DNA of 64,000 bases from Haloferax marinisediminis (lineage in GTDB: Archaea > Halobacteriota > Halobacteria > Halobacteriales > Haloferacaceae). The stretch lies in the NCBI RefSeq assembly GCF_009674585.1, contig NZ_WKJP01000001.1, forward strand, positions 2,542,001 to 2,606,000. The letters run 5' to 3'. This document shows, one piece after another, positions 34,286-53,629 of this stretch (positions are counted from its first letter, which is position 1; the number at the start of each line of letters is the position of its first letter). The notes below the pieces were generated by a model. The model was not told the origin of the DNA. It saw only the letters and a list, made by a program, of their open reading frames with translations, and made no database searches. The position numbers and the translations under genes are program-made.

Positions 34286-35530
34286 ATGGGCATCACATAC
34301 GAGGACTTCCTCGCTCTCGACTACGAACCGTCCGACGAGGAACTCGTCTGCACCTTCCGAATCGACCCCGCGACCGGAATGTCGCCCGAGGCGGCCGCGA
34401 GTCGTGTGGCCTCCGAGTCCTCCAACGGAACGTGGGCCGCGCTCCAGACCGGTGAAGACTTCACCGACATGGGCGCGACGGCGTTCTCCATCGACGGCGA
34501 TATCATTAAAGTCGCGTACCCCGCCGGTCTGTTCGAACCCGGCAACATGCCACAGGTCCTCTCCTGCATCGCCGGCAACATCATGGGGATGAAAGCGGTC
34601 GACACGATTCGACTCGTGGACTGCGAGTGGCCCGAGTCCGTCGTCTCGTCGTACCCCGGCCCCCTCTACGGGTCGTCCGTCAGAGAAGAGATATTCGGCG
34701 TCAGCGACCGCCCCATCACGGCGACGGTCCCCAAGCCGAAAGTCGGGCTCTCGACGGCGGCCCACGCGCAAGTCGGCTACGACGCGTGGGTCGGCGGCGT
34801 CGACCTCCTGAAGGACGACGAGAACCTCACCGACCAGGCGTTCAACCCCTTCTCCGACCGCCTCACCGAGTCGCTGTCGCTCCGTGACGACGCACAGGAC
34901 GAGACGGGCGAGACGAAGTCGTACCTCATCAACGTGACCGCCGACACCCAGACGATGCTGGACCGTGTGGACGAGGTGGCCGCACAGGGTGGCGAGTACG
35001 TCATGGTCGACATCATCACCGCTGGGTGGGCAGGCCTCCAGACCGTCCGTGAGCGGACCGAAAAACACGGTATCGCGATTCACGCCCACCGCGCCATGCA
35101 CGCCGCATTCGACCGGCTGCCGAGTCACGGTGTCTCCATGCGCGTCCTCGCACAGGTGTCCCGCCTCTGCGGTGTCGACCAGCTCCACACCGGGACTGCA
35201 GGTCTCGGTAAACTCGCCAACGAGGACACTGTCGGTATCAACGAGTGGATGCGCAGCGACCTCTACGGGATGAACGACGTGCTTCCGGTCGCATCTGGCG
35301 GCCTCCACCCCGGTCTGCTTCCAGACCTCCTCGACGCGACGGGAACGAACGTCTGTGTCCAACTCGGTGGCGGTATCCACGGCCACCCTGACGGCACCCG
35401 CGCCGGTGCAGTCGCGCTTCGAGCGGCCATCGACGCCTACGTCGACGGGCGACCGATTTCAGAAGCTGCAGAAGAGACGCCCGAACTCGCCGTCGCCCTC
35501 GACAAGTGGGGCACCGAGACGCCGCGATAA
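34286..35530 (+). CDS. rbcL: Type III ribulose-bisphosphate carboxylase, large subunit
   Basis: Archaeal (type III) RuBisCO, 414 residues. It carboxylates ribulose-1,5-bisphosphate to two 3-phosphoglycerates, here as the last step of AMP/nucleoside salvage. Catalytic residues are in place: K150 in TVPKPKVG, carbamylated K176 with D178-E179 in GGVDLLKDDENL, H266 in AIHAHRAMHA, loop-6 K309 in HTGTAGLGKL, and ASGGLHPG near the end. The other two enzymes of the route follow within 2.6 kb: R15P isomerase and AMP phosphorylase. No phosphoribulokinase is visible, so a Calvin cycle is not implied. Confidence 0.96.
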   Translation: MGITYEDFLALDYEPSDEELVCTFRIDPATGMSPEAAASRVASESSNGTWAALQTGEDFTDMGATAFSIDGDIIKVAYPAGLFEPGNMPQVLSCIAGNIMGMKAVDTIRLVDCEWPESVVSSYPGPLYGSSVREEIFGVSDRPITATVPKPKVGLSTAAHAQVGYDAWVGGVDLLKDDENLTDQAFNPFSDRLTESLSLRDDAQDETGETKSYLINVTADTQTMLDRVDEVAAQGGEYVMVDIITAGWAGLQTVRERTEKHGIAIHAHRAMHAAFDRLPSHGVSMRVLAQVSRLCGVDQLHTGTAGLGKLANEDTVGINEWMRSDLYGMNDVLPVASGGLHPGLLPDLLDATGTNVCVQLGGGIHGHPDGTRAGAVALRAAIDAYVDGRPISEAAEETPELAVALDKWGTETPR

Positions 35531-35554
35531 GTTAGATAGAATTCAGCTCAGTTC

Positions 35555-36508
35555 TCAGGGTTCGACCCACGGTTCGGTCGTCCCTTCGCCGAACAGTTCA
35601 CGCATCAAGATGACGATGCTCTCGGGCGGGAACTGCCCCCGTTCCGTGACGATTGCGTCGACGTAGCGAGGCGGCGTCACGTCGAACGCCGGATTCTTCA
35701 CCGTCGGATTGCCGAGTTCTGCGAGCGTCTCGTCGTCGATTATCTCCTCAGTGTCGCGCATCTCGATATCGACGGTGTGGCCCGTCATCGTCCCCGGGTG
35801 GAGTTTGAGCGTCTGCGCAGCGACCATGATTGGCGTGCCTCTGTCGCGGGCGTTGACCGCGAGACCACTCGTGCCAATCTTGTTGATGACGCTCCCGTCG
35901 GCCGCGACGGCGTCCGCACCGACCAACACGTGGTCGACGTCGTTGAGGTACCGTCGGGCCGCCGAATCGACGATGAGCGTGACGGGGACGCCCATCTCGT
36001 GAAGTTCTCGCGCAGTGATGTGGCCCTGATTCCGCGGGCGCGTCTCTTTGACGATGGCCTCGATGTGTTTTCCCTGTTCGACCGCCGCTTCGACACACGC
36101 GAGCGCGTCCGTCGAGTGGCAGTGTGTCATGATGACGTCGCCGTCGCGGAGGCGATTCGCACCGACCTGCCCGAGGTCTGACTGTGCGCGTTCGAGGCGA
36201 GCGCAGAACTCGTCCGCCGAATCGACGACGTTCTGCCGGAGTCCCTCGACGGTCGTACTCGACATCCCACGGAGCACGTACCGAAGTGCGTTGGGGAGGC
36301 TCACAGCGGTCGGTCGGGTCTCGTAGAGCGTCCGGGCCGCGGCCCGAAGTTCACCCCGAAACGTCTCCGGGTCAGTGGCATCGCTCTCTTGGGCCTGTGT
36401 CCGGAGGGCACGGGCGACTGCGTCCGCGATGGTCGCCGCCCCGCGGATCTCCATCGTGTCGATTTCGTCCGCGATGCGCCGCACCTCGGGGTGTACGCGC
36501 TCGTCCAT
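35555..36508 (-). CDS. Ribose-1,5-bisphosphate isomerase
   Basis: Converts ribose-1,5-bisphosphate to ribulose-1,5-bisphosphate, the RuBisCO III substrate. It belongs to the eIF2B-alpha/MtnA-like fold and is often mis-annotated as a translation factor. The 317-residue protein has the two catalytic residues of the Thermococcus enzyme's layout: C130 in IMTHCHSTD and D199 in VLVGADAV, with TRPRNQGH and INKIGTSGLA typical of the isomerase group. It lies 75 bp after the AMP phosphorylase gene on the same strand and converges with rbcL (24 bp). Confidence 0.93.
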   Translation of the reverse strand: MDERVHPEVRRIADEIDTMEIRGAATIADAVARALRTQAQESDATDPETFRGELRAAARTLYETRPTAVSLPNALRYVLRGMSSTTVEGLRQNVVDSADEFCARLERAQSDLGQVGANRLRDGDVIMTHCHSTDALACVEAAVEQGKHIEAIVKETRPRNQGHITARELHEMGVPVTLIVDSAARRYLNDVDHVLVGADAVAADGSVINKIGTSGLAVNARDRGTPIMVAAQTLKLHPGTMTGHTVDIEMRDTEEIIDDETLAELGNPTVKNPAFDVTPPRYVDAIVTERGQFPPESIVILMRELFGEGTTEPWVEP

Positions 36509-36583
36509 ACCCTCAATTAGGTTGTTCGAATGAAAAAAGGTCGCTGCAGTGGGGTGGTGTCGAAACGCGTCGGTCGGTCCGTC
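36509..36583 (-). promoter_or_regulatory. Spacer between AMP phosphorylase and R15P isomerase
   Basis: A 75-bp spacer with a T-rich tract (ctttttt on the minus strand near 36532) centred ~28 nt before the isomerase ATG. It can act as a weak TATA-like element for the isomerase and also as an oligo-T end for the upstream AMP phosphorylase transcript. Which of the two it is cannot be told from sequence. Confidence 0.4.
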
Positions 36584-38062
36584 TCACATCCGGTCGACGA
36601 TGGCCTCGTCTGGGTGACGGACACGAACCATCTCGACGCGACCCACGAGGTCGACGGCGTCGGCCAGTTTGTCCGGTGATTCCGCGTGAATCGTGTAGAG
36701 TGATTCACCGGTAGCCGCCACGTCGCCGACGCGGTGATGGAGTTCGATTCCTGCGGCGGGGTCTCTCGGTGCGCCTGCGCGTCTCGCAATCTCGTTCACG
36801 AGGCGGTTGTTGATGTGTGTGACCACGCCGTCTCGGTCGGCGCGGACAGTGTGGGTGTGACGCCCGGGAACGAGGTCCGCAGCCTCGACGTCCGGGTCGC
36901 CGTTCTGTGCCACGATAATCTCTCGGAACGTCTCGCGGGCGGCCCCAGAGTCGAGTATCTCGGCGGCGTCGGCGTCGACACCGGCAGACTCGAAGAGGAG
37001 GTCTGCGAGACGAATCGCCTTCACTCGAAGGTCGTTCGGTCCCCCACCAGCGAGCGTCGCGAGGACCTCACGGGCCTCCAAAATCGGGCCAACGCCCCTG
37101 CCGACCGGTGCGCCCCCGTTGGTGATTGCACACTCGAGAGACATCCCGAGGTGGGACCCGACTCTCCCGAAATCCTCGGCGAGTTCGCGTGCCTCTGGGA
37201 GGCTTTCTACTTTCGCTCCCTCGCCGTACGGGATGTCGACGACGACGTGTGTCGACCCGGCGCTCTTCTTCTTCGAGAGGACCGAGGCGATGAGTTGCCC
37301 GCGTGGGTCGATAGAAAGCGGCGTCTCGGCCCGGATGATTCGGTCGTCGACCGGCGATAAGTTCACTGCGCCACCCCAGACGAGACACCCGCCAGTCTCG
37401 CCGACGATGTCACGAATCTCTTCGACAGAGAACTCCACGTCGCAGAGGACTTCCATCGTGTCTGCAGTGCCTGCGGCGGAGGTGACCGCTCGTGAGGACG
37501 TCTTTGGAATCTTCAGTCCCGCGGCGGCGACGATGGGGACGAGAATCGGCGTGACACGGTTGCCGGCGACACCGCCGATAGAGTGCTTGTCGGCGATTAT
37601 CGGCTCGTCCCACGTGATCGACTCACCGACGTCGGCCATACACTCCGTGAGGTGCAGCGTCTCTTCCATCGAGAGGCCGTTCGTGTACGTCGCAGAGACG
37701 TACGCACCGAGTTCGATGTCGGCCAGTCGCTCTTCGTAGATGTCGTGGACGATACGGGCGAGTTCGTGGCGCTCGAGTTCGATGTCGTTGAGTTTCTTGC
37801 GGATGTAGTAGACGGATTTCGGCTGTGGCGCGACCGACACGTCGATGCTGCCTTCGATGTGGCCGAGTCGGCGCGTCACGCCGAGTGTCCCCTCCGAGAC
37901 GAGTTCGTCGGTCAGCTCCACGATGCCAATCGTCGTTCGATTGTCGTGGCGAAGTTGGACGCGTTCGAGCGCGTGGACGCCGAGTTCGGCCGCATCTGCT
38001 TCGTTGAGAATGACGGTCGGCGACCGAGTCCCGATATCGATGGGTTCGGCGACGAGTTGCAT
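36584..38062 (-). CDS. deoA: AMP phosphorylase
   Basis: Splits AMP with phosphate into adenine and ribose-1,5-bisphosphate, the first step of the archaeal AMP pathway. A 492-residue member of the thymidine phosphorylase family, extended at the N-terminus by ~85 residues (MQLVAEPIDIGTRSPTVILNE...) as in archaeal AMPpase. Features: SMEETLHLTECMADVGE, ADKHSIGGVAGNRVTPILVPIVAAAGLKIPKTSSRAVTSAAGTADTMEV, and a C-terminal RNA-binding-like domain. The start at 38062 fits a TATA-like element at 38086-38092 (27 nt, leaderless). Confidence 0.95.
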   Translation of the reverse strand: MQLVAEPIDIGTRSPTVILNEADAAELGVHALERVQLRHDNRTTIGIVELTDELVSEGTLGVTRRLGHIEGSIDVSVAPQPKSVYYIRKKLNDIELERHELARIVHDIYEERLADIELGAYVSATYTNGLSMEETLHLTECMADVGESITWDEPIIADKHSIGGVAGNRVTPILVPIVAAAGLKIPKTSSRAVTSAAGTADTMEVLCDVEFSVEEIRDIVGETGGCLVWGGAVNLSPVDDRIIRAETPLSIDPRGQLIASVLSKKKSAGSTHVVVDIPYGEGAKVESLPEARELAEDFGRVGSHLGMSLECAITNGGAPVGRGVGPILEAREVLATLAGGGPNDLRVKAIRLADLLFESAGVDADAAEILDSGAARETFREIIVAQNGDPDVEAADLVPGRHTHTVRADRDGVVTHINNRLVNEIARRAGAPRDPAAGIELHHRVGDVAATGESLYTIHAESPDKLADAVDLVGRVEMVRVRHPDEAIVDRM

Positions 38063-38085
38063 AGGAGAACTTCGACGGAGAGTGA

Positions 38086-38092
38086 CATAAAC
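38086..38092 (-). promoter_or_regulatory. TATA box for AMP phosphorylase
   Basis: gtttatg on the minus strand is centred ~27 nt before the ATG at 38062, which settles the start against an open upstream frame at 38107. Confidence 0.6.
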
Positions 38093-38112
38093 CGACCTCG
38101 CCGACACGCAAC

Positions 38113-46809: not shown

Positions 46810-47141
46810 TCGAGGAACATCTGAAACTCGGCGGCGCGGCCGTCGGGGTCGTCGGCGAAGAACTGGTAGATGTGGTAGGTGTCGTTCTCGTGCGGTTCGT
46901 CGCGTGCGACATCGTTCAGTGCATCGTGCATCTCGTCGACGGCCGTTCGCGACTCGTAGACGAACGTGAGGATGCCGCAGTCGTCCGTGTAGTCTCTGTC
47001 ACAGAAGCCGAACCGAAAGCCGTCGAAGTCGAGGATGGTACACCCGGGTTGTTCGAGCCACACGTCCGCGCCGACACGGTTCGTGTAGAACTCGACGACA
47101 GCGTCGTGCTGTTGGGTGGCGAAGAAGACGATTCCAGACAT
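46806..47141 (-). CDS. VOC superfamily / glyoxalase-like protein
   Basis: A 111-residue vicinal-oxygen-chelate fold protein (SGIVFFATQQHDAVVEFYTNRVGADVWLEQPGCTILDFDGFRFGFC ... YHIYQFFADDPDGRAAEFQMFLD). Members bind divalent metal and catalyse glyoxalase, ring-cleavage or resistance reactions; E/H ligands are suggested by the final AAEFQMF but the family member cannot be named. I start at ATG 47141; the frame upstream is the shadow of the spacer. It overlaps the converging PH-domain gene by 4 nt. Confidence 0.82.
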   Translation of the reverse strand: MSGIVFFATQQHDAVVEFYTNRVGADVWLEQPGCTILDFDGFRFGFCDRDYTDDCGILTFVYESRTAVDEMHDALNDVARDEPHENDTYHIYQFFADDPDGRAAEFQMFLD

Positions 47142-47323
47142 ACGGTTGCTGCGACGCTCGCGGCCAAAGTCGTTCTGGGCGCAGAGTGTCCAACGACCAC
47201 TTCGAAGGTGTCCGCGAGTCGCAGTCACCCTCGCGGTCTCGGTCAGTTGCTCCGATGCTCGGACCCCCGTTGAGTAACTCAGAGGAACACAATATCTTTC
47301 TCACATCCTCGAGACGTACAAAC
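47142..47323 (+). promoter_or_regulatory. lrp upstream region with palindrome and TATA box
   Basis: tgagt-a-actca (47271-47281) is a perfect inverted repeat with 5-bp arms. A TATA-like aatatctt follows at 47290-47297, ~30 nt before the Lrp ATG at 47324. An Lrp-family protein often regulates its own promoter, so this is a candidate autoregulatory site. Confidence 0.45.
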
Positions 47324-47806
47324 ATGGCTGACCACGGCATCGACGACGTGGACCGCGCGATTCTCCACGCCCTGCAGGAAGACGCGCGAAATCTGTCGTC
47401 GAGTGACATCGCAGAACGGTCTGGAACGTCCGACAGCACCGTTCGAAAGCGCATCAAGCGCCTCGAAGAGAAGGAAGTTATCAAAGGCTACCACGCCGCG
47501 ATCGACTACCAGAACTCGGGGTTTCCGTTCAAGATGCTCCTGTTTTGCACCGCACCGATTCCCAAGCGCGGGAAGATGATACAGGACATCTTGTCTATCA
47601 ACGGTGTCGTCTCCGTCCAGGAACTGGTCACCGGCGAGAAGAACCTCCTCGTCACAGTCGTCGGAAAAAACGACGACGACGTCACGCCGGTCGCACAGGA
47701 ACTACTCGACCTCGGACTGACCGTCGCCGACGAGGTGCTCGTTCGAACCCACAAGACGACGCCGTTCGGTGGATTCACGAGCGGCCAGTCCGAAGAACCC
47801 GAGTAA
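47324..47806 (+). CDS. Lrp/AsnC family transcription regulator
   Basis: A 160-residue DNA-binding regulator. The N-terminal helix-turn-helix is DDVDRAILHALQEDARNLSSSDIAERSGTSDSTVRKRIKRLEEKEVIKGYHAAID (residues ~7-62). The C-terminal RAM-like ligand/oligomerisation domain runs from ~75 to 150 (VVSVQELVTGEKNLLVTVVGKNDDDVTPVAQELLDLGLTVADEVLV). Family members respond to amino acids or other small molecules. It lies immediately before dabB-dabA on the same strand, with a 375-bp spacer and its own hairpin-oligoT end, so it may control them. That is inference from position. The start at 47324 matches the HTH register. Confidence 0.88.
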   Translation: MADHGIDDVDRAILHALQEDARNLSSSDIAERSGTSDSTVRKRIKRLEEKEVIKGYHAAIDYQNSGFPFKMLLFCTAPIPKRGKMIQDILSINGVVSVQELVTGEKNLLVTVVGKNDDDVTPVAQELLDLGLTVADEVLVRTHKTTPFGGFTSGQSEEPE

Positions 47807-47816
47807 CTGGCCTCTC

Positions 47817-47844
47817 GACACCGTAGCGAACACCGGTGTCTTTT
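47817..47844 (+). terminator. Hairpin plus T-run after lrp
   Basis: gacaccg (47817-47823) and cggtgtc (47834-47840) form a 7-bp stem with a 10-nt loop, immediately followed by tttt (47841-47844). It starts 10 nt past the lrp stop, so lrp is probably transcribed separately from dabB. Confidence 0.55.
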
Positions 47845-48181
47845 CTCACGCACCTGTGTCCGAAACAGAACGGTTCGTTCGGAAATACCCGCTACTCGAA
47901 CAGAGCGTGCGACGAGACAGGGAGATAGCTCTCGGAGACGAACTGCGGTGGAAACGGCGCTTACCCGGTTCAGAAGGGTGTTTTGTACGGGAGCGCCAGA
48001 TAGTCTGCCATTCGGTAACATATACTATAATGTTCTTTCATGCCCTTCTTTGAGAACAGTTTGTTCGAATAGGAGATTTTAATAATGAATACGTTCGTAC
48101 TATGGTCGTGAAGAGGACAGTCCGTGGGTGAGCCGCTCACGTCGAGCGGTGGACTGACGGACTGCCAATCGCTCACAAACG
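47845..48181 (+). promoter_or_regulatory. dabB upstream region: AT-rich promoter and structured leader
   Basis: A 337-bp gene-free stretch. An AT-rich block (near 48015-48090) contains TTTTAATAAT (48077-48086), which predicts a start near 48107 and a leader of ~75 nt before the ATG at 48182. The leader holds cagtccgt (48118-48125) pairing with acggactg (48157-48164) or, six bases, with ggactg (48151-48156); an inner hairpin ccgctc/gagcgg (48133-48138/48144-48149); and a competing gtgag/ctcac (48128-48132/48136-48140). gctcac recurs at 48171-48176, just before the ATG. Confidence 0.55.
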
Positions 48182-49669
48182 ATGACAGACGAGACGAGAT
48201 TACCCCGGGTCGGACCGCTTCCGAAGACGGCAACAGCGTCGCCATGGCTCCCGCTCGCCCTCACGCGAGTCGTGTGGTCCCTCTGGGTCGTGAGTCTCGT
48301 CGTGGCCATGCTCCGGCTCTCGAGTTCCGAGAGCTGGTCGCTGCTCGGACTGTTCTCAGTCGACGGTCTGACTGTCGTGATGTGGGTCGTCGTGACGTTC
48401 TTCAGCGGAATCGTCCACAGTTTTTCGCGGCGCTACATGGCCGGAGATAGCGGGCTCACCAGATTCTTCGGCAACGTGTTCACGTTCACGCTCGCCGTGA
48501 TGACGCTCGTCGCGGCAGATTCACTCGTCGTGTTCGTGGCACTATGGCTGACGATGGGTCTGGTGATGGCCAACCTCATCGGTCACGTCGACTCGTGGCA
48601 ACACGCGCGCACGGCTGCCACACACGCTCGTCGCTCCTTCGCGGCAAGCAGTGCCTTGCTGGCTGTCTCCTTCGCGGTGTTGTGGTGGCAGACCGGCGCG
48701 ACGACGGTTTCTGGTGTCGCCTCAGCGAATATCACACCCACTGGGACCATTCTGTTCGCGGCCGCGATGCTCCTGCTGGCGGCGATGATTCAGTCCGCAC
48801 TGCTCCCGTTCCACACGTGGTTACTCTCGTCGATGACCGCGCCGACGCCCGCGTCGGCACTGATGCACGCCGGGTTCGTCAACGCAGGCGGAATTCTGTT
48901 ACTCCGGTTCGCACCGGTCGTCACCGTCGACGGTGGCTTCATGCTGGCAATCGTGGTCGTGGGCGCGACGAGTGCCCTCCTCGGGAAGTTGCTGAAGACC
49001 GTCCAGACAGACGTCAAGAGTCAACTCGGCTGTTCGACCGTCGGACAGATGGGGTTCATGTTCATGCAAGCTGGACTCGGGTTCTTCGGTGCCGCGATTA
49101 CACACCTCATCTTGCACGGATTCTACAAAGCGTACCAGTTCCTCTCCTCGGGGAGCAGTGTCGAACAGACGGCACCCGGGAAAAAGCGTGACCTGACTCG
49201 GTCCTCGGGGCTTGCTGGTGTCGCCGTGACCGTGGCGACAGCACTCGCAGGTGGCGTCGTGTTCGCCGTCATCACCGGGAAGGGACTGGCGTTCGACACC
49301 GGACTGCTACTCGCAGGACTCGTCGTGCTGACCACGATGCACGCCGCCCGTGAGACAGTTCGGCACACAGAACTGCCATCGTTCCTTCGGTACGGTGCGG
49401 TTCCGCTGGTGTTCTTGCCAGCAATTGCCGTGTACGCGTCGGTGTACACGTTCATCGAGCACGCGTTGGTCGGGGTTCCGCTCGTCACGGTCCCCACCGA
49501 ACTGACACCCGTTCACCTCGCCGTCGCCGCGGCGTTCCTCCTCGCGTACGTCGTCATCGAGAGTGGAGTCTACCTCCGCAGCACTCACCTGTACGTGACA
49601 CTCGTGAACGCGACGCGCCCTGCGTCCGGAACCATCGTGACAACCAGAGAGGAGTACAATGAGCACTAA
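48182..49669 (+). CDS. dabB: Inorganic carbon uptake complex, membrane subunit DabB
   Basis: A 495-residue membrane protein related to NuoL/MrpA, about 13 helices. It couples an ion gradient to DabA in the vectorial CO2-hydration (DAB) complex. The core matches: LPFHTWLLSSMTAPTPASALMHAGFVNAGGILLLRF (residues ~208-242) and LILHGFYKAYQFLSSG with K316. Two channel residues of true NuoL are not conserved: the helix-5 Glu position falls in VALWLTMGLVMANLIG, and the helix-7 Lys position is Q204 (AAMIQSALLPFHTWL). The long lateral-helix tail of NuoL is absent. It overlaps dabA by 11 bp. Confidence 0.88.
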   Translation: MTDETRLPRVGPLPKTATASPWLPLALTRVVWSLWVVSLVVAMLRLSSSESWSLLGLFSVDGLTVVMWVVVTFFSGIVHSFSRRYMAGDSGLTRFFGNVFTFTLAVMTLVAADSLVVFVALWLTMGLVMANLIGHVDSWQHARTAATHARRSFAASSALLAVSFAVLWWQTGATTVSGVASANITPTGTILFAAAMLLLAAMIQSALLPFHTWLLSSMTAPTPASALMHAGFVNAGGILLLRFAPVVTVDGGFMLAIVVVGATSALLGKLLKTVQTDVKSQLGCSTVGQMGFMFMQAGLGFFGAAITHLILHGFYKAYQFLSSGSSVEQTAPGKKRDLTRSSGLAGVAVTVATALAGGVVFAVITGKGLAFDTGLLLAGLVVLTTMHAARETVRHTELPSFLRYGAVPLVFLPAIAVYASVYTFIEHALVGVPLVTVPTELTPVHLAVAAAFLLAYVVIESGVYLRSTHLYVTLVNATRPASGTIVTTREEYNEH

Positions 49670-52145
49670 CGAAACCATTCGCAACACCATCGAACAGGCT
49701 GCAACGAGCGTCGGGTCGGTCTGGCCGCTTCACTCCTTCGTGACGGCGAATCCACTCAGTGGCTTCGAAGACCGCCCGTTCAACGAGGCCGTCCAACAGG
49801 CCGAACGACTGTTCGGTGGTCGCGGCTACCCGAGCGCGGACGTGTTCCGCGCAGCGCTCGACACGGGCCAAATCGACCCGGAGACGCTTCGGACCGAACT
49901 GCGTGCACACGGATACGAGGCAGAGCCATCGGCCCTCTTGGAACACATGGAAGCCGAGGAGGTACAGGCCCCCGAGGACGACGAATCGAGTCCATACGAC
50001 GCCGTCGACGCGGTTCTGACGAAGTGGCTCGCTGCCTTCCTCGACGAAGGCCACGCGACGTGGTCGATGCCGAACCGTGAACGTGGGTTCTACGCCGCGT
50101 TTCGTTCTGTGGCGCGCCACGACCAGTCGCTCCCGGACCGGAACGCAGTTGCGGACCTTCCAGACGACCCGACCGAGGCTATCGAACAGGTCGTGTCGAC
50201 GTATCCACAGGAGCAGTTGACCGACCTCTTCGAGTTCCACCTCAGCAGACTTCCGGGGTGGACCGGGTTCATCAAACAGCGGGCCGCCAGCGGTGGAGAC
50301 TGGCAGACGACGTACCCCATCACGCTCACGGAGTATCTGGCCGTTCGGTTGGTTCTCACCGACCTCTTCGATGCACCACTCGGTCCGTCCACGTCCGAAG
50401 CGGAACCGACACGTCCCGAAGAGAGTCCACAGTCCGACGACGACGTTCCGCTTCCGGAACTCTGGTTGAACGCGTGGGAAGCTACGTATCGCTCCCAACT
50501 CGTCGACGCGATTACCGAACAGCGCCAGTCGACGGCCGCGACCGGAGGTAAGAGAGCAATCGCTCTCGAAGACGGTGGTCGCCCGGACGCACAACTCGTC
50601 TTCTGTATCGACACGCGCTCGGAGGTCATCCGCCGGCACATCGAGAAGACAGGTGCGTACGAGACCTTCGGTTACGCGGGCTTCTTCGGCATTCCGATGC
50701 GCTACGAGGGGTACGACTCCGGGGTCACAATCGACGCCTGCCCGCCGATTCTCGATGCCCAACACTACGTCGCCGACACCCCGGCCGAAGGATGTGACCA
50801 CGAACACGAGCGCTACGACACGTGGGCGAACAGCACGAGTGCTGCCACGAACGTCCTCAAATCGCTCAAATCGAACGCTTCGACCGTGTTTAGCTTCGTC
50901 GAGAGCGCTGGGAGTGGCTACGGTGTTGCACTCACCGCACGGACCCTCTTCCCGGCACGTGTGAACGACTTCCTGAGCGCCGTTTCCGAGCGGGTTCCAT
51001 CCCACGCAGAGTTCTGTGACCCAGCGCTCGACTACGACCCGAACGCCGACGGAGACCTGCCACACGGACTGTCCACCGAGGAGAAAGTCGAGTACGCCGC
51101 CACCGCGTTCGAACTGATGGGATGGGACGAGTTCGCGCGCGTCGTCGCGTTCGTCGGCCACGCCAGTCAGACCGCGAACAACCCGTTCGAGTCGAGTCTC
51201 GACTGTGGTGCCTGTGCCGGCAACGCCGGTGGCCCGAGTGCTCGTGTCCTCGCGGCCATCTGCAACGACGACGAGGTCAGGTCCGCACTCCACGACCGTG
51301 GATTCGACATCCCGTCGGACACCGTCTTCGTCGCTGGCGAACACAACACCACGACTGACGAAGTGACGCTCTTCACCGCGCCCGTCCCGGAGAGCCACGA
51401 GGACGACATCGAACAGCTTCGTTCGGACCTCGAAACTGCCCGCGCCGGTGCGGCCGCAGAACGGACCGAGTCGATGGACGTCACCGAACCGGGAATTCGT
51501 GAGACCGAACGCCGCGCCACAGACTGGGCCGAGACGCGGCCCGAGTGGGGTCTCGCAGGCAACGCAGGCTTCGTCGTCGGCCCCCGTTCGCTCACCGAGG
51601 GGCTCGACCTCGACGGCCGCTCGTTCCTCCACTCGTACGATTGGCAGGCCGACGAATCGGGCGAGGCGCTGGCAGCCATCGTGGGCGGACCGATGGTCGT
51701 CACCCAGTGGATAAACATGCAGTACTACTTCTCGACCGTGGACAACGCGGTCTTCGGCAGCGGGTCGAAAATCACGCACAACCCGGTCGGAAACGTCGGC
51801 GTCTACCAGGGGAACGGCGGCGACCTGATGACAGGACTGCCGCTCCAGTCGGTCATGGTGGCCGACGACGACCCACAACACCAACCACTGCGCCTCTCGG
51901 TCGTGATTCACGCACCGGTCGAACGGATGACCACTGTCCTCGCCGAGAACCCTGCGGTCACGGAACTGCTGGACAACGGCTGGCTCTCGCTGACCGTCGT
52001 CGACCCGACACAGAACGACACGTCGTTCGAGTACGACGGGAACCTCACGTGGGAGGCCGACGAGACGTATGACCGCCTCGACACGACCGATGAACCGGAA
52101 CAGACGGAGAAGCCGACGGCGCCACCGATGGCGGCCGACGACTGA
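49659..52145 (+). CDS. dabA: Inorganic carbon uptake complex, catalytic subunit DabA (DUF2309)
   Basis: An 828-residue soluble subunit (DUF2309) that, with DabB, takes up CO2/bicarbonate by one-way hydration. It uses a beta-carbonic-anhydrase-like zinc site. The residues matching the known DabA site are present: C316 and D318 in VFCIDTRSEVIRR, H501 in FVGHASQTANNPFESS, and C516 in LDCGACAGNAGG; the H-to-C spacing of 15 equals that I recall for Halothiobacillus DabA. The VWPLHSFVTANPLSGFEDRPF opening is family-typical. It overlaps dabB and is followed 95 bp on by a beta-carbonic anhydrase. Confidence 0.92.
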   Translation: MSTNETIRNTIEQAATSVGSVWPLHSFVTANPLSGFEDRPFNEAVQQAERLFGGRGYPSADVFRAALDTGQIDPETLRTELRAHGYEAEPSALLEHMEAEEVQAPEDDESSPYDAVDAVLTKWLAAFLDEGHATWSMPNRERGFYAAFRSVARHDQSLPDRNAVADLPDDPTEAIEQVVSTYPQEQLTDLFEFHLSRLPGWTGFIKQRAASGGDWQTTYPITLTEYLAVRLVLTDLFDAPLGPSTSEAEPTRPEESPQSDDDVPLPELWLNAWEATYRSQLVDAITEQRQSTAATGGKRAIALEDGGRPDAQLVFCIDTRSEVIRRHIEKTGAYETFGYAGFFGIPMRYEGYDSGVTIDACPPILDAQHYVADTPAEGCDHEHERYDTWANSTSAATNVLKSLKSNASTVFSFVESAGSGYGVALTARTLFPARVNDFLSAVSERVPSHAEFCDPALDYDPNADGDLPHGLSTEEKVEYAATAFELMGWDEFARVVAFVGHASQTANNPFESSLDCGACAGNAGGPSARVLAAICNDDEVRSALHDRGFDIPSDTVFVAGEHNTTTDEVTLFTAPVPESHEDDIEQLRSDLETARAGAAAERTESMDVTEPGIRETERRATDWAETRPEWGLAGNAGFVVGPRSLTEGLDLDGRSFLHSYDWQADESGEALAAIVGGPMVVTQWINMQYYFSTVDNAVFGSGSKITHNPVGNVGVYQGNGGDLMTGLPLQSVMVADDDPQHQPLRLSVVIHAPVERMTTVLAENPAVTELLDNGWLSLTVVDPTQNDTSFEYDGNLTWEADETYDRLDTTDEPEQTEKPTAPPMAADD

Positions 52146-52206
52146 GTCGACGGACCGCTTTTCTCGTCGGCAGTCCGTTCCAGTGGTGATTCTTCGTTCC
52201 GACCCC

Positions 52207-52216
52207 GGTATTTACC
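52207..52216 (+). promoter_or_regulatory. Promoter of the carbonic anhydrase gene
   Basis: ggtatttacc, itself an inverted repeat (ggta-tt-tacc), is centred ~30 nt before the ATG at 52241. The gene therefore probably has its own start and leaderless or near-leaderless transcript, besides any read-through from dabA. Confidence 0.5.
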
Positions 52217-52240
52217 ACTGATGAGCGATAGTTCAGCGCA

Positions 52241-52936
52241 ATGTCGAACTCGGTACTGGAGTCGCTCCTGACTGGAAACGAATACTACGTCGAACACCTC
52301 GACGCAGACCACTTCGAGGGGGTTCGAGACGTGCAAAAACCACCGGCCGTCTCCGTCGGGTGCTCGGACTCTCGCGTGCCAGTCGAAGCGCTCTGGAACA
52401 CCGACGAAGCGGGAAAACTCTTCAAATCGGTCAACATCGCGAATCAGGCGTGGACCGAAATCGACGGCGAACTCGTCGTCAACGACGTCGTCGGCTACGC
52501 TGTCACCGAACTCGGCGTCTCGGATGTCATCATCCTCGGACACACGGGGTGCGGCGGAGTCACGTCGGCCTACGAAGCCGTCGTCGGTGACGGAATGAAA
52601 GACCTCCCAGTGGCCGTCGAAGCGGCCATCTCACGACTCGTTCCGTTAGTCGAAGAAGCGCGGGAGTTGGGCATCTTCAGCGAGGAGACGCCAGCAGGCG
52701 AGGCCGTCAACCGACTGGTCGAGTATGCAGTCGTCCGACAAGTCGAATTCCTCGTCGAGAGCGACGAAGTGCCCGAGACCACCGACTGTTGGGGCTTCGT
52801 CTACGACTTCCAGCACACGTATGGAGTCGAAGACGGTGCGGCGTATCTCGTCTCAGCAAACGGCGAATCGAACCCAGACAAGCTCGAAGAGATGGTTCCC
52901 GCGCAGTTCCGAGAACGTGTCCGGTCGATTCGGTGA
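52241..52936 (+). CDS. Beta-class carbonic anhydrase
   Basis: A 231-residue enzyme that interconverts CO2 and bicarbonate. Beta-class zinc and catalytic residues are complete: C41, D43 and R45 in VGCSDSRVP and H101/C104 in LGHTGCGGV. There is no signal peptide, so it is cytoplasmic. It follows dabA by 95 bp with its own promoter. A carbonic anhydrase beside DabAB could either return DAB-derived bicarbonate to CO2 near the carboxylases or short-circuit the pump; which one depends on location and control, not visible here. Confidence 0.95.
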   Translation: MSNSVLESLLTGNEYYVEHLDADHFEGVRDVQKPPAVSVGCSDSRVPVEALWNTDEAGKLFKSVNIANQAWTEIDGELVVNDVVGYAVTELGVSDVIILGHTGCGGVTSAYEAVVGDGMKDLPVAVEAAISRLVPLVEEARELGIFSEETPAGEAVNRLVEYAVVRQVEFLVESDEVPETTDCWGFVYDFQHTYGVEDGAAYLVSANGESNPDKLEEMVPAQFRERVRSIR

Positions 52937-52969
52937 GCGGTCGATTCGGAGGCCGTCTGTTCGTGAGCG

Positions 52970-53629
52970 TCAGTCCTGTCGTGCGTCGTCGATAATCTGC
53001 GAGAACTCGCGGGCCGTCTCGGTGATGACGTCGAAGTCGCCGTTGGCGATTGCTTCGTCGTCCATGAGCGCACCACCAGCGCCGACGACGACAGCGCCTG
53101 CTTCGATGTAGTCCGCGGCGTTGTCGAGGCCGACGCCGCCGGTCGGCATCATCGGAATCTGCGGGAGCGGACCCTTCATACTCTTGAGGTGGCCCGGTCC
53201 GAGCGACGACGCCGGGAAGACCTTCACGAGGTCGGCACCTGTTTCGAAGGCGTTCACGGCCTCCGTCGGCGTCATGATGCCCGGTGCGACGAGCGTGCCG
53301 TAGCGGTTGCACGTCTCAACGACGCCTTCGTCGAAGTTCGGACCGACGACGAACTCTGCACCGGACTGGATGGCCGCGTTGGCAGTCGGTGCGTCGAGAA
53401 CCGTTCCCGCACCGACGATTGCTTCGCGGTCCGAGAACGATGCCGACACTTCGCTGATGAGGTCCATCGCGTCGGGGTTGTCGGCCGTAATCTCGTAGGC
53501 GGTGACGCCCCCCTCGTTCAGCGCGTCGGCGACGTCGATGATGGTGTCGGCGTCCGCCCCACGCATCACCGCGACGACGCCGCTGTCGGCCAGTCGTTGC
53601 ATGTTCTCGTGTACGTCGAGTGTGACCAT
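52970..53629 (-). CDS. KDPG/KHG aldolase family protein
   Basis: A 219-residue class I aldolase of the Eda family, which splits 2-keto-3-deoxy-6-phosphogluconate or 4-hydroxy-2-oxoglutarate to pyruvate plus an aldehyde. The catalytic residues are E46 (YEITADNP) and the Schiff-base K136 in LVKVFPASSLGPG; the phosphate region MMPTGGVGLDNAADYIEAGAVVVGAGGAL is typical. It completes an Entner-Doudoroff-like step, the semi-phosphorylative route used by haloarchaea. It converges with the carbonic anhydrase gene (33 bp). Confidence 0.92.
   Translation of the reverse strand: MVTLDVHENMQRLADSGVVAVMRGADADTIIDVADALNEGGVTAYEITADNPDAMDLISEVSASFSDREAIVGAGTVLDAPTANAAIQSGAEFVVGPNFDEGVVETCNRYGTLVAPGIMTPTEAVNAFETGADLVKVFPASSLGPGHLKSMKGPLPQIPMMPTGGVGLDNAADYIEAGAVVVGAGGALMDDEAIANGDFDVITETAREFSQIIDDARQD

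Follow-up and report, generated by a model that had tools for sequence, protein, structure and literature searches.

How do haloarchaea, a mostly heterotrophic lineage, obtain bicarbonate and control its supply? The question is raised by four genes in a 64,000-nucleotide stretch of the Haloferax marinisediminis genome (contig NZ_WKJP01000001.1; hereafter the window), listed in Table 1: an Lrp/AsnC-family regulator, dabB, dabA, and a beta-carbonic anhydrase (CA). An earlier note made from the sequence had described them as a self-contained, regulated island for carbon supply, an interpretation that is borne out in part. We favor, at a probability of roughly 0.76, a reading in which the locus encodes a vectorial carbonic anhydrase that is controlled by Lrp and supplies bicarbonate to ordinary carboxylases, with the CA a separate, partly interchangeable gene beside dab.

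Table 1. Features of the dab locus, with positions in the window.
Feature	Position	Strand	Evidence
Lrp/AsnC-family regulator, 160 aa	47324..47806	+	Pfam PF13404/PF13412; winged HTH and putative RAM-like domain
dabB, NuoL-like proton-conducting membrane subunit (predicted), 495 aa	48182..49669	+	PF00361 and PF00662; best PDB match 9rd0_B
dabA, zinc beta-CA-like subunit, 828 aa	49659..52145	+	PF10070, 885 bits; 9rd0_A (DabA2)
Beta-carbonic anhydrase (CA), 231 aa	52241..52936	+	PF00484; PDB beta-CAs; active-site alignment
Candidate operator 1, palindrome GAACGGTTCGTTC	47868..47880	no strand	Motif enrichment in Lrp-dabB spacers
Candidate operator 2, palindrome GAACAGTTTGTTC	48054..48066	no strand	Pattern matched at the same position in 6/6 aligned window-type Haloferax spacers
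TATA-like element TTTTAATA, putative dabBA promoter	48077..48084	+	About 10 bp 3' of palindrome 2
TATA-like TATTTA	52209..52214	+	32 bp 5' of CA start; kept in 6 Haloferax (dabA-CA gap alignment)

The DabA and DabB proteins

The open reading frames and coordinates given in the earlier note were reproduced exactly, and its description of an Lrp gene, an 11-bp dabB-dabA overlap (49659-49669), and a CA 95 bp farther on (gap 52146-52240) is correct to the base. The locus stands far above chance because DabA matches its family with E = 6e-266 and 147 of 149 other haloarchaeal loci show the Lrp-dabB-dabA order, Lrp lying on the same strand ahead of the other two genes. A scan of positions 47000-53000 against Rfam found no known RNA element.

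DabA covers the PF10070 profile over its full length (positions 1-747 of 747) and aligns end to end with the DabA2 subunit of DAB2 from Halothiobacillus neapolitanus (PDB 9rd0/9rd8/9rd9, PMC13144422; E = 8e-104 to 9rd0_A), and the closest PDB match of DabB is DabB2 of the same complex (E = 6e-38). The residues proposed earlier as the zinc site (C316, D318, H501, and C516) are present and align with C351, D353, H524, and C539 of DAB2. The zinc ligands C316, H501, and C516 and the Asp-Arg dyad D318/R320 are invariant among 150 haloarchaeal sequences, so that the loss of zinc residues in relatives, which the earlier note had held would count against carbon uptake, is seen in none of them. Equally invariant are the finger residue E415, W630, and L632, a hydrophobic leucine that replaces the Gln/His of beta-CAs; W630 and L632 correspond to the Trp/Leu pair close to the active site of DAB2. 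The proton-path residues of DabB (S225, H229, K279, S285, H308, H312, and K316) are retained in 149-150 of 150 sequences. In DAB2, whose residue numbers are taken from PMC13144422, mutants of these conserved residues fail (PMC13144422).

Haloarchaeal DabB differs from that of DAB2 in its ion pair: the residues Lys235/Asp185 and Arg182 of DabB2 are absent from the window protein (Q204, S157, and A154 instead), and across haloarchaea these positions hold Gln (in 147/150 at the Lys position), Ser, and Leu or Ala. Among the sampled bacterial DabB sequences that extend over these positions, all but the haloarchaeal-type L008 retain Lys together with Asp or Glu. Alanine mutants of the DAB2 ion pair have lowered, not abolished, activity (PMC13144422), and we treat the pair as a DAB2-like feature that does not define the family; because it is missing here, coupling may differ from that of DAB2. 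By their PF10070 DabA, zinc site, and adjacent DabB, the window and the other haloarchaeal loci are assigned, at the level of sequence, to the DAB or vectorial carbonic anhydrase family, and the best explanation of the Lrp-dabB-dabA unit is that it is a haloarchaeal form of the DAB/MpsAB system. DabA was found in 239 of the 391 genomes searched (Dab+; the other 152 are Dab-).

A dedicated Lrp and its candidate operators

The Lrp start is the ATG at 47324, whose M1 is invariant across 36 aligned relatives; a longer frame, from a GTG at 47186, is also available. The protein passes the cut-off for the PF13404 AsnC-type HTH (51.4 bits against 27) and matches solved Lrp/AsnC proteins in a profile search (E = 3e-15). 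Its AlphaFold model, which is of low confidence (pLDDT 60) and was used for topology only, has the Lrp topology with the expected strand-helix order, and Foldseek aligned it to Lrp proteins at E = 1e-7 over 140+ columns with an rmsd near 12 Å. The HTH and the Lrp-like overall topology are shared with PH0140 (7fby), LrpA (1i1g), and a halophilic Lrp (8q90), but the window Lrp differs in that it reaches no NCBIfam equivalog cut-off, leaves PF01037 (RAM) unmatched, and is tied to dab.

Amino acids are the usual signal for Lrp/AsnC proteins and occur as ligands in solved relatives, and one genome (G129) keeps the Lrp and lacks DabA; the gene could accordingly be a mere syntenic neighbor controlling amino-acid metabolism, with the palindromes belonging to another factor. 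We think this improbable in view of how closely the two genes keep company. An Lrp orthologue occurs in 234/239 Dab+ and 3/152 Dab- genomes, presence and absence agree near-perfectly with DabA over 54-55 genera, the linkage survives extensive rearrangement, and Lrp distances correlate with DabA distances (r = 0.705; permutation maximum 0.07).

The palindrome GAACRNNNYGTTC is likewise confined to the Lrp-dabB spacer. It occurs 69 times in 43 kb of these spacers and once in 159 kb of other spacers, counts that are to be read knowing that it was discovered on the very loci scored; the window spacer (47807-48181) carries two such palindromes. The strict form is missing from many loci (17/18 in g29, for example), and the bare 13-mer has at least 100 occurrences in the genome. 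An iterated weight matrix places sites in 136/147 loci and in some 1% of other spacers, but these loci were also its training set and the background spacers were shorter, so we rely on the strict pattern. Upstream of Lrp itself, 41 kb of sequence contain no copy, and autoregulation through the same palindrome was rejected on this ground; none precedes the unlinked CA of volcanii-type Haloferax. A hairpin in the dabB leader is unproven (covariation term just -0.18 kcal/mol), and a sigma-70 promoter scan was set aside as a model inapplicable to archaea.

The regulated part of the proposed island therefore stands for DabAB, which has a DabA-specific Lrp and a palindrome concentrated in the Lrp-dabB spacer. 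We infer from this that the adjacent Lrp is a dedicated regulator of the dab locus, and Lrp binding, the sign of regulation, and the ligand are all to be read as inferred. It might further be supposed, tentatively and with the odds against it, that the dab-linked Lrp family is an archaeal regulator devoted to inorganic carbon, which responds to CO2, to bicarbonate, or to an immediate product of carboxylation and controls dabBA by way of GAACRNNNYGTTC in most of the class Halobacteria; in some genera, CA-like proteins that lack the dyad would be additional partners. The AlphaFold model of a dyad-less CA is of low confidence (pLDDT 56; topology use only).

The carbonic anhydrase as a loose companion

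The window CA has a complete active site, with zinc ligands C41, H101, and C104, the dyad D43/R45, and Gln32 at the transition-state position, in agreement with the residues C41/D43/H101/C104 named beforehand; it lacks an obvious signal peptide and is predicted to be a beta-carbonic anhydrase that hydrates CO2. Each of the 15 Haloferax genomes searched has an orthologue. In 62/149 loci, where chance would give 0.75, a CA lies within 6 kb of dab, its arrangement varying from locus to locus; CA is the commonest recurring dab neighbor after Lrp. The co-directional Lrp-dabB-dabA-CA order, whose conservation across haloarchaea the earlier note had proposed to check, is found in only 6/149 loci, namely five window-type Haloferax, which with the window make up a single subclade of the genus, and L132, which is unrelated and carries a different CA. 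Volcanii-group Haloferax have the orthologous CA at this same chromosomal site but no Lrp-dabB-dabA beside it. A four-gene module conserved across the class is thus rejected, and the self-contained part of the island finds no support in the form proposed. The conserved TATTTA before the CA suggests that this gene may use its own promoter. On our best reading, the CA is a carbon-supply gene in its own right, in part interchangeable, and has repeatedly arrived beside dab.

Among the 40 genomes without a beta-CA, 36 are Dab+ (Fisher p = 3e-5; within-genus permutation p = 0.004), a bias that suggests that dab and beta-CA are interchangeable. MpsAB of Staphylococcus aureus, a DabAB homologue from a heterotrophic host, offers a parallel: either MpsAB or CA can substitute for the other in Staphylococcus and E. 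coli (PMC6689103, PMC8552792), and S. sciuri, B. subtilis, and B. anthracis have a CA directly downstream of it (PMC8552792). In Firmicutes, however, the two are rarely found together according to the authors, whereas 203/239 Dab+ haloarchaea (85%) also have a beta-CA. This coexistence is a counterpoint to carbon supply, since a cytosolic CA should dissipate DAB-made bicarbonate; co-expression of CA and MpsAB in Staphylococcus reduced growth (PMC8552792).

What DabAB may be for

DabAB could instead serve mainly pH or ion homeostasis, letting protons in and acidifying the cytoplasm through CO2 hydration, or transporting sodium, a role that has been claimed for MpsAB. In its favor are the membership of DabB in the Mrp/NuoL antiporter family, the published argument for sodium use by MpsAB (as cited in PMC13144422), and the lost NuoL-type ion pair, which could mean changed coupling. 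We regard this as unlikely: a plain ion leak would have no need of the zinc-site and dyad residues kept in 150/150 DabA sequences, complementarity with beta-CA points to carbon supply, and DAB2 failed to restore a mutant defective in sodium transport (PMC13144422).

Less likely still is that the four genes form one CO2-concentrating unit, in which DabAB loads bicarbonate and the CA makes CO2 for a RuBisCO III cluster: such a cluster lies 9-13 kb upstream (34286-38107), the window also has R15P-isomerase-like (IF-2B family) and AMP-phosphorylase-like genes, RuBisCO and dab are about 10-25 kb apart in window-type Haloferax, g3, and g23, and the CA is enriched beside dab, but RuBisCO is not associated with DabA across the class (88/239 Dab+ and 49/152 Dab- genomes; p = 0.39; 151 Dab+ genomes have none), and Haloferax and g3 share a single syntenic locus, which makes one inherited event the probable source of the proximity there. 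RuBisCO supply as a general use, one of the options raised earlier, finds no class-wide support for the same want of association.

In the Lrp-controlled carbon-supply reading, DabB would let in protons down the membrane gradient, and their entry would drive the one-way hydration of CO2 to bicarbonate by DabA, which would be attached to DabB through its membrane finger; hydration, coupling, and direction are all drawn by analogy with DAB2. The bicarbonate would stay available for ordinary carboxylation in a heterotroph, whereas the DAB2 host is a chemolithoautotroph. Lrp would act on dabBA by binding the palindromes just 5' of the dabB promoter.

Relation to known systems and significance

Haloarchaeal dabAB itself was known beforehand from reports of 2017 and 2021: COG3002-NuoL operons had been noted (PMC5700660), and HVO_2410/HVO_2411 of H. 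volcanii, the same two-gene unit as in the window, is a predicted CO2 transporter (PMC8305020). Volcanii-group DabA in the genomes searched is ~61-62% identical to the window protein and located elsewhere in the genome. Our literature search found no experiment on any archaeal DAB. Where bacterial forms are often accompanied by LysR or PII genes, as described in PMC5700660, the upstream gene here is Lrp. New here are the dedicated Lrp, the palindrome, the placement of the CA outside the conserved module, and the beta-CA/DAB complementarity; the relevant portions of PMC8305020 and PMC5700660 do not describe the Lrp, the palindrome, or the CA relation.

For the question of how bicarbonate is obtained and controlled in heterotrophic haloarchaea, these results provide an answer that is concrete and open to test. 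DabAB occurs in ~60% of the genomes searched, has its own regulator, and largely covers the genomes without beta-CA. That DAB and CA so often occur together departs from the Firmicutes pattern and makes one ask how the cells escape futile cycling, and the genetic tractability of Haloferax lets the Lrp and the palindrome be tested directly.

A conserved Lrp-dabB-dabA unit

In this 3.49 Mb Haloferax genome, the Lrp regulator, dabB, dabA, and beta-carbonic anhydrase (CA) genes lie where the earlier note placed them, with the spacing and residues that it named. In our DabA scan its closest named relatives, 81-86% identical in this protein, are H. profundi, H. marinum, H. mucosum, H. larsenii, and H. 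elongans. We found DabA in 239 of 391 Halobacteria genomes, representing 55 of 86 genera, and compared 149 of these dab loci with about 6 kb of each flank. In 128 of them dabB and dabA overlap by exactly 11 bp, and 147 have a window-like Lrp gene 5' of dabB in the same orientation, the exceptions being a contig edge (L191) and a genome with Lrp about 54 kb off (G037). The proposed four-gene module holds as Lrp-dabB-dabA only: CA placement varies, and the window's co-directional order is confined to one Haloferax subclade (window-type) and a single further locus (L132).

Features of the dab locus and residues matched to the bacterial DAB2 system (numbering from PMC13144422)
Feature	Window	DAB2
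RuBisCO large chain, IF-2B-family (R15P-isomerase-like), and AMP-phosphorylase-like genes	34286-38107	
Lrp (+)	47324-47806	
Palindrome copy 1	47868-47880	
Palindrome copy 2, then TTTTAATA 10 bp on	48054-48066	
Possible hairpin	48117-48170	
dabB (+)	48182-49669	
dabA (+)	49659-52145	
TATA-like element	52209	
CA (+)	52241-52936	
DabA zinc ligands	C316/H501/C516	C351/H524/C539
DabA dyad	D318/R320	D353/R355
DabA finger Glu	E415	E444
DabA Trp/Leu	W630/L632	W656/L658

In a class-wide search (E <= 1e-45), Lrp was present in 234 of 239 genomes with DabA versus 3 of 152 without, counts that ignore shared ancestry. Two of those three matches are the weakest of those listed, and in two of the five DabA genomes lacking Lrp (G206, G273) the DabA matches themselves are just fragments. 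Lrp and DabA pairwise distances correlate at 0.705 (permutation maximum 0.07), and in same-genus pairs divergent DabA is accompanied by divergent Lrp, as expected if both genes travel together. One genome, G129, has an Lrp orthologue (L223, 68% identity) although Pfam finds no DabA or beta-CA in it.

An inverted-repeat search near dabB turned up GAAC-N5-GTTC forms in many genera. The strict palindrome GAACRNNNYGTTC has 69 matches in Lrp-dabB spacers totaling 43 kb, at 59 loci from 23 genera, versus 1 in 159 kb of other spacers at the same loci; the regions upstream of Lrp contain none. Although we scored the motif on the very loci that yielded it, the contrast is too large to be explained that way. 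It occurs in all 13 Haloferax loci, with both DabA types; the strict form was not found in several genera among the compared loci. The 13-mer alone lacks specificity within the genome (at least 100 sites). We infer that Lrp may bind this candidate operator; our search of the open-access literature found no publication on the dab-linked Lrp or the palindrome. The dabB leader also contains a possible short hairpin, kept in seven Haloferax, with covariation too slight to judge. Haloarchaeal DabAB operons themselves were noted in 2017, their function then not known (PMC5700660), and a 2021 paper assigned HVO_2410/2411 as dabAB (PMC8305020).

Conservation of DabA and DabB

PF10070 covers the entire length of DabA (885 bits), which aligns with DabA2 of the solved Halothiobacillus neapolitanus DAB2 system (9rd0_A, E 8e-104). 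All DabA residues in the table are invariant in 150 haloarchaeal sequences (the window and 149 others), so the zinc residues on which the earlier note relied are lost in none of these relatives. The top match of DabB is DabB2 (9rd0_B, E 6e-38), and its proton-path residues are retained in 149-150 of 150 haloarchaeal sequences. The sampled bacterial DabB sequences covering the ion-pair site have Lys with Asp or Glu, whereas haloarchaea lack this pair class-wide: Gln, Ser, and Ala replace K235, D185, and R182 in the window, and Gln is found in 147 of 150. Since mutations there lower DAB2 activity without abolishing it (PMC13144422), the loss marks a variant rather than a broken system. The one bacterial exception is L008, a contig labeled as a Bradymonadaceae MAG; its Lrp-dabB-dabA is of the haloarchaeal type, including the Ser/Gln pair of haloarchaeal DabB, through either mis-binning or transfer.

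Carbonic anhydrase as a mobile neighbor

After Lrp, CA is the most recurrent dab neighbor: 62 of 149 loci (23 genera) have a beta-CA or CA-like gene no more than 6 kb away, versus about 0.75 expected by chance. In 37 loci this gene is downstream and convergent; in 9 it falls between Lrp and dabB, in 7 it is upstream divergent, in 6 downstream co-directional, and in 4 upstream co-directional (one locus, with two CA genes, is counted twice). Linkage changed at least 13 times on the FastTree DabA tree, a minimum that depends on the tree. CA adjoining MpsAB, the Staphylococcus homologue, is known from Bacillus and S. sciuri (PMC8552792).

The window CA has an orthologue in all 15 Haloferax genomes. 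In eight volcanii-group genomes (L212-L219), it occupies the same site, between bacterial-PH-domain and KDPG-aldolase genes, without Lrp-dabB-dabA, and a different dab (~61%) lies elsewhere; in genomes of the Halobellus clavatus type (g3), the site holds an inverted Lrp-dabB-dabA and no CA. Therefore, whether by loss, gain, or replacement, dab has changed at this site independently of CA.

Two other neighbors recur. A CA-like protein of ~230 aa is encoded on the dab strand between Lrp and dabB in L066, L107, L108, L119, L122 (a fragment only), L128, L133, L154, L197, and L224-L227; the copies read keep the zinc Cys and His-x-x-Cys, the catalytic CxDxR Asp-Arg dyad is replaced (CSMS, CPMx, and similar), and all 13 strong class-wide matches are in genomes with DabA. 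An opposite-strand amidohydrolase (PF01979, ~338 aa; e.g., L160:3147-4163 (-)) lies upstream of dab in about 28 loci from 13 genera, often between Lrp and dabB.

Possible role in carboxylation

DabA is found in 36 of 40 genomes without PF00484 versus 203 of 351 with it (p = 3e-5; CA scored by PF00484 only). Within-genus permutation gives p = 0.004, mainly from two genera (g26 and g35), so this complementarity is real but modest once kinship is considered. DabA showed no class-wide association with RuBisCO (p = 0.39); in the window, a RuBisCO gene cluster lies 9-13 kb upstream of dab. DAB and CA frequently coexist; the separate TATA-like element of the window CA, together with the frequent opposite orientation elsewhere, would allow CA expression under conditions other than those of dab. 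Given the CA complementarity, the lack of association with RuBisCO, and the published ability of MpsAB and DAB2 to complement CA mutants (PMC6689103, PMC8552792, PMC13144422), haloarchaeal DabAB would most likely supply bicarbonate for general carboxylation.
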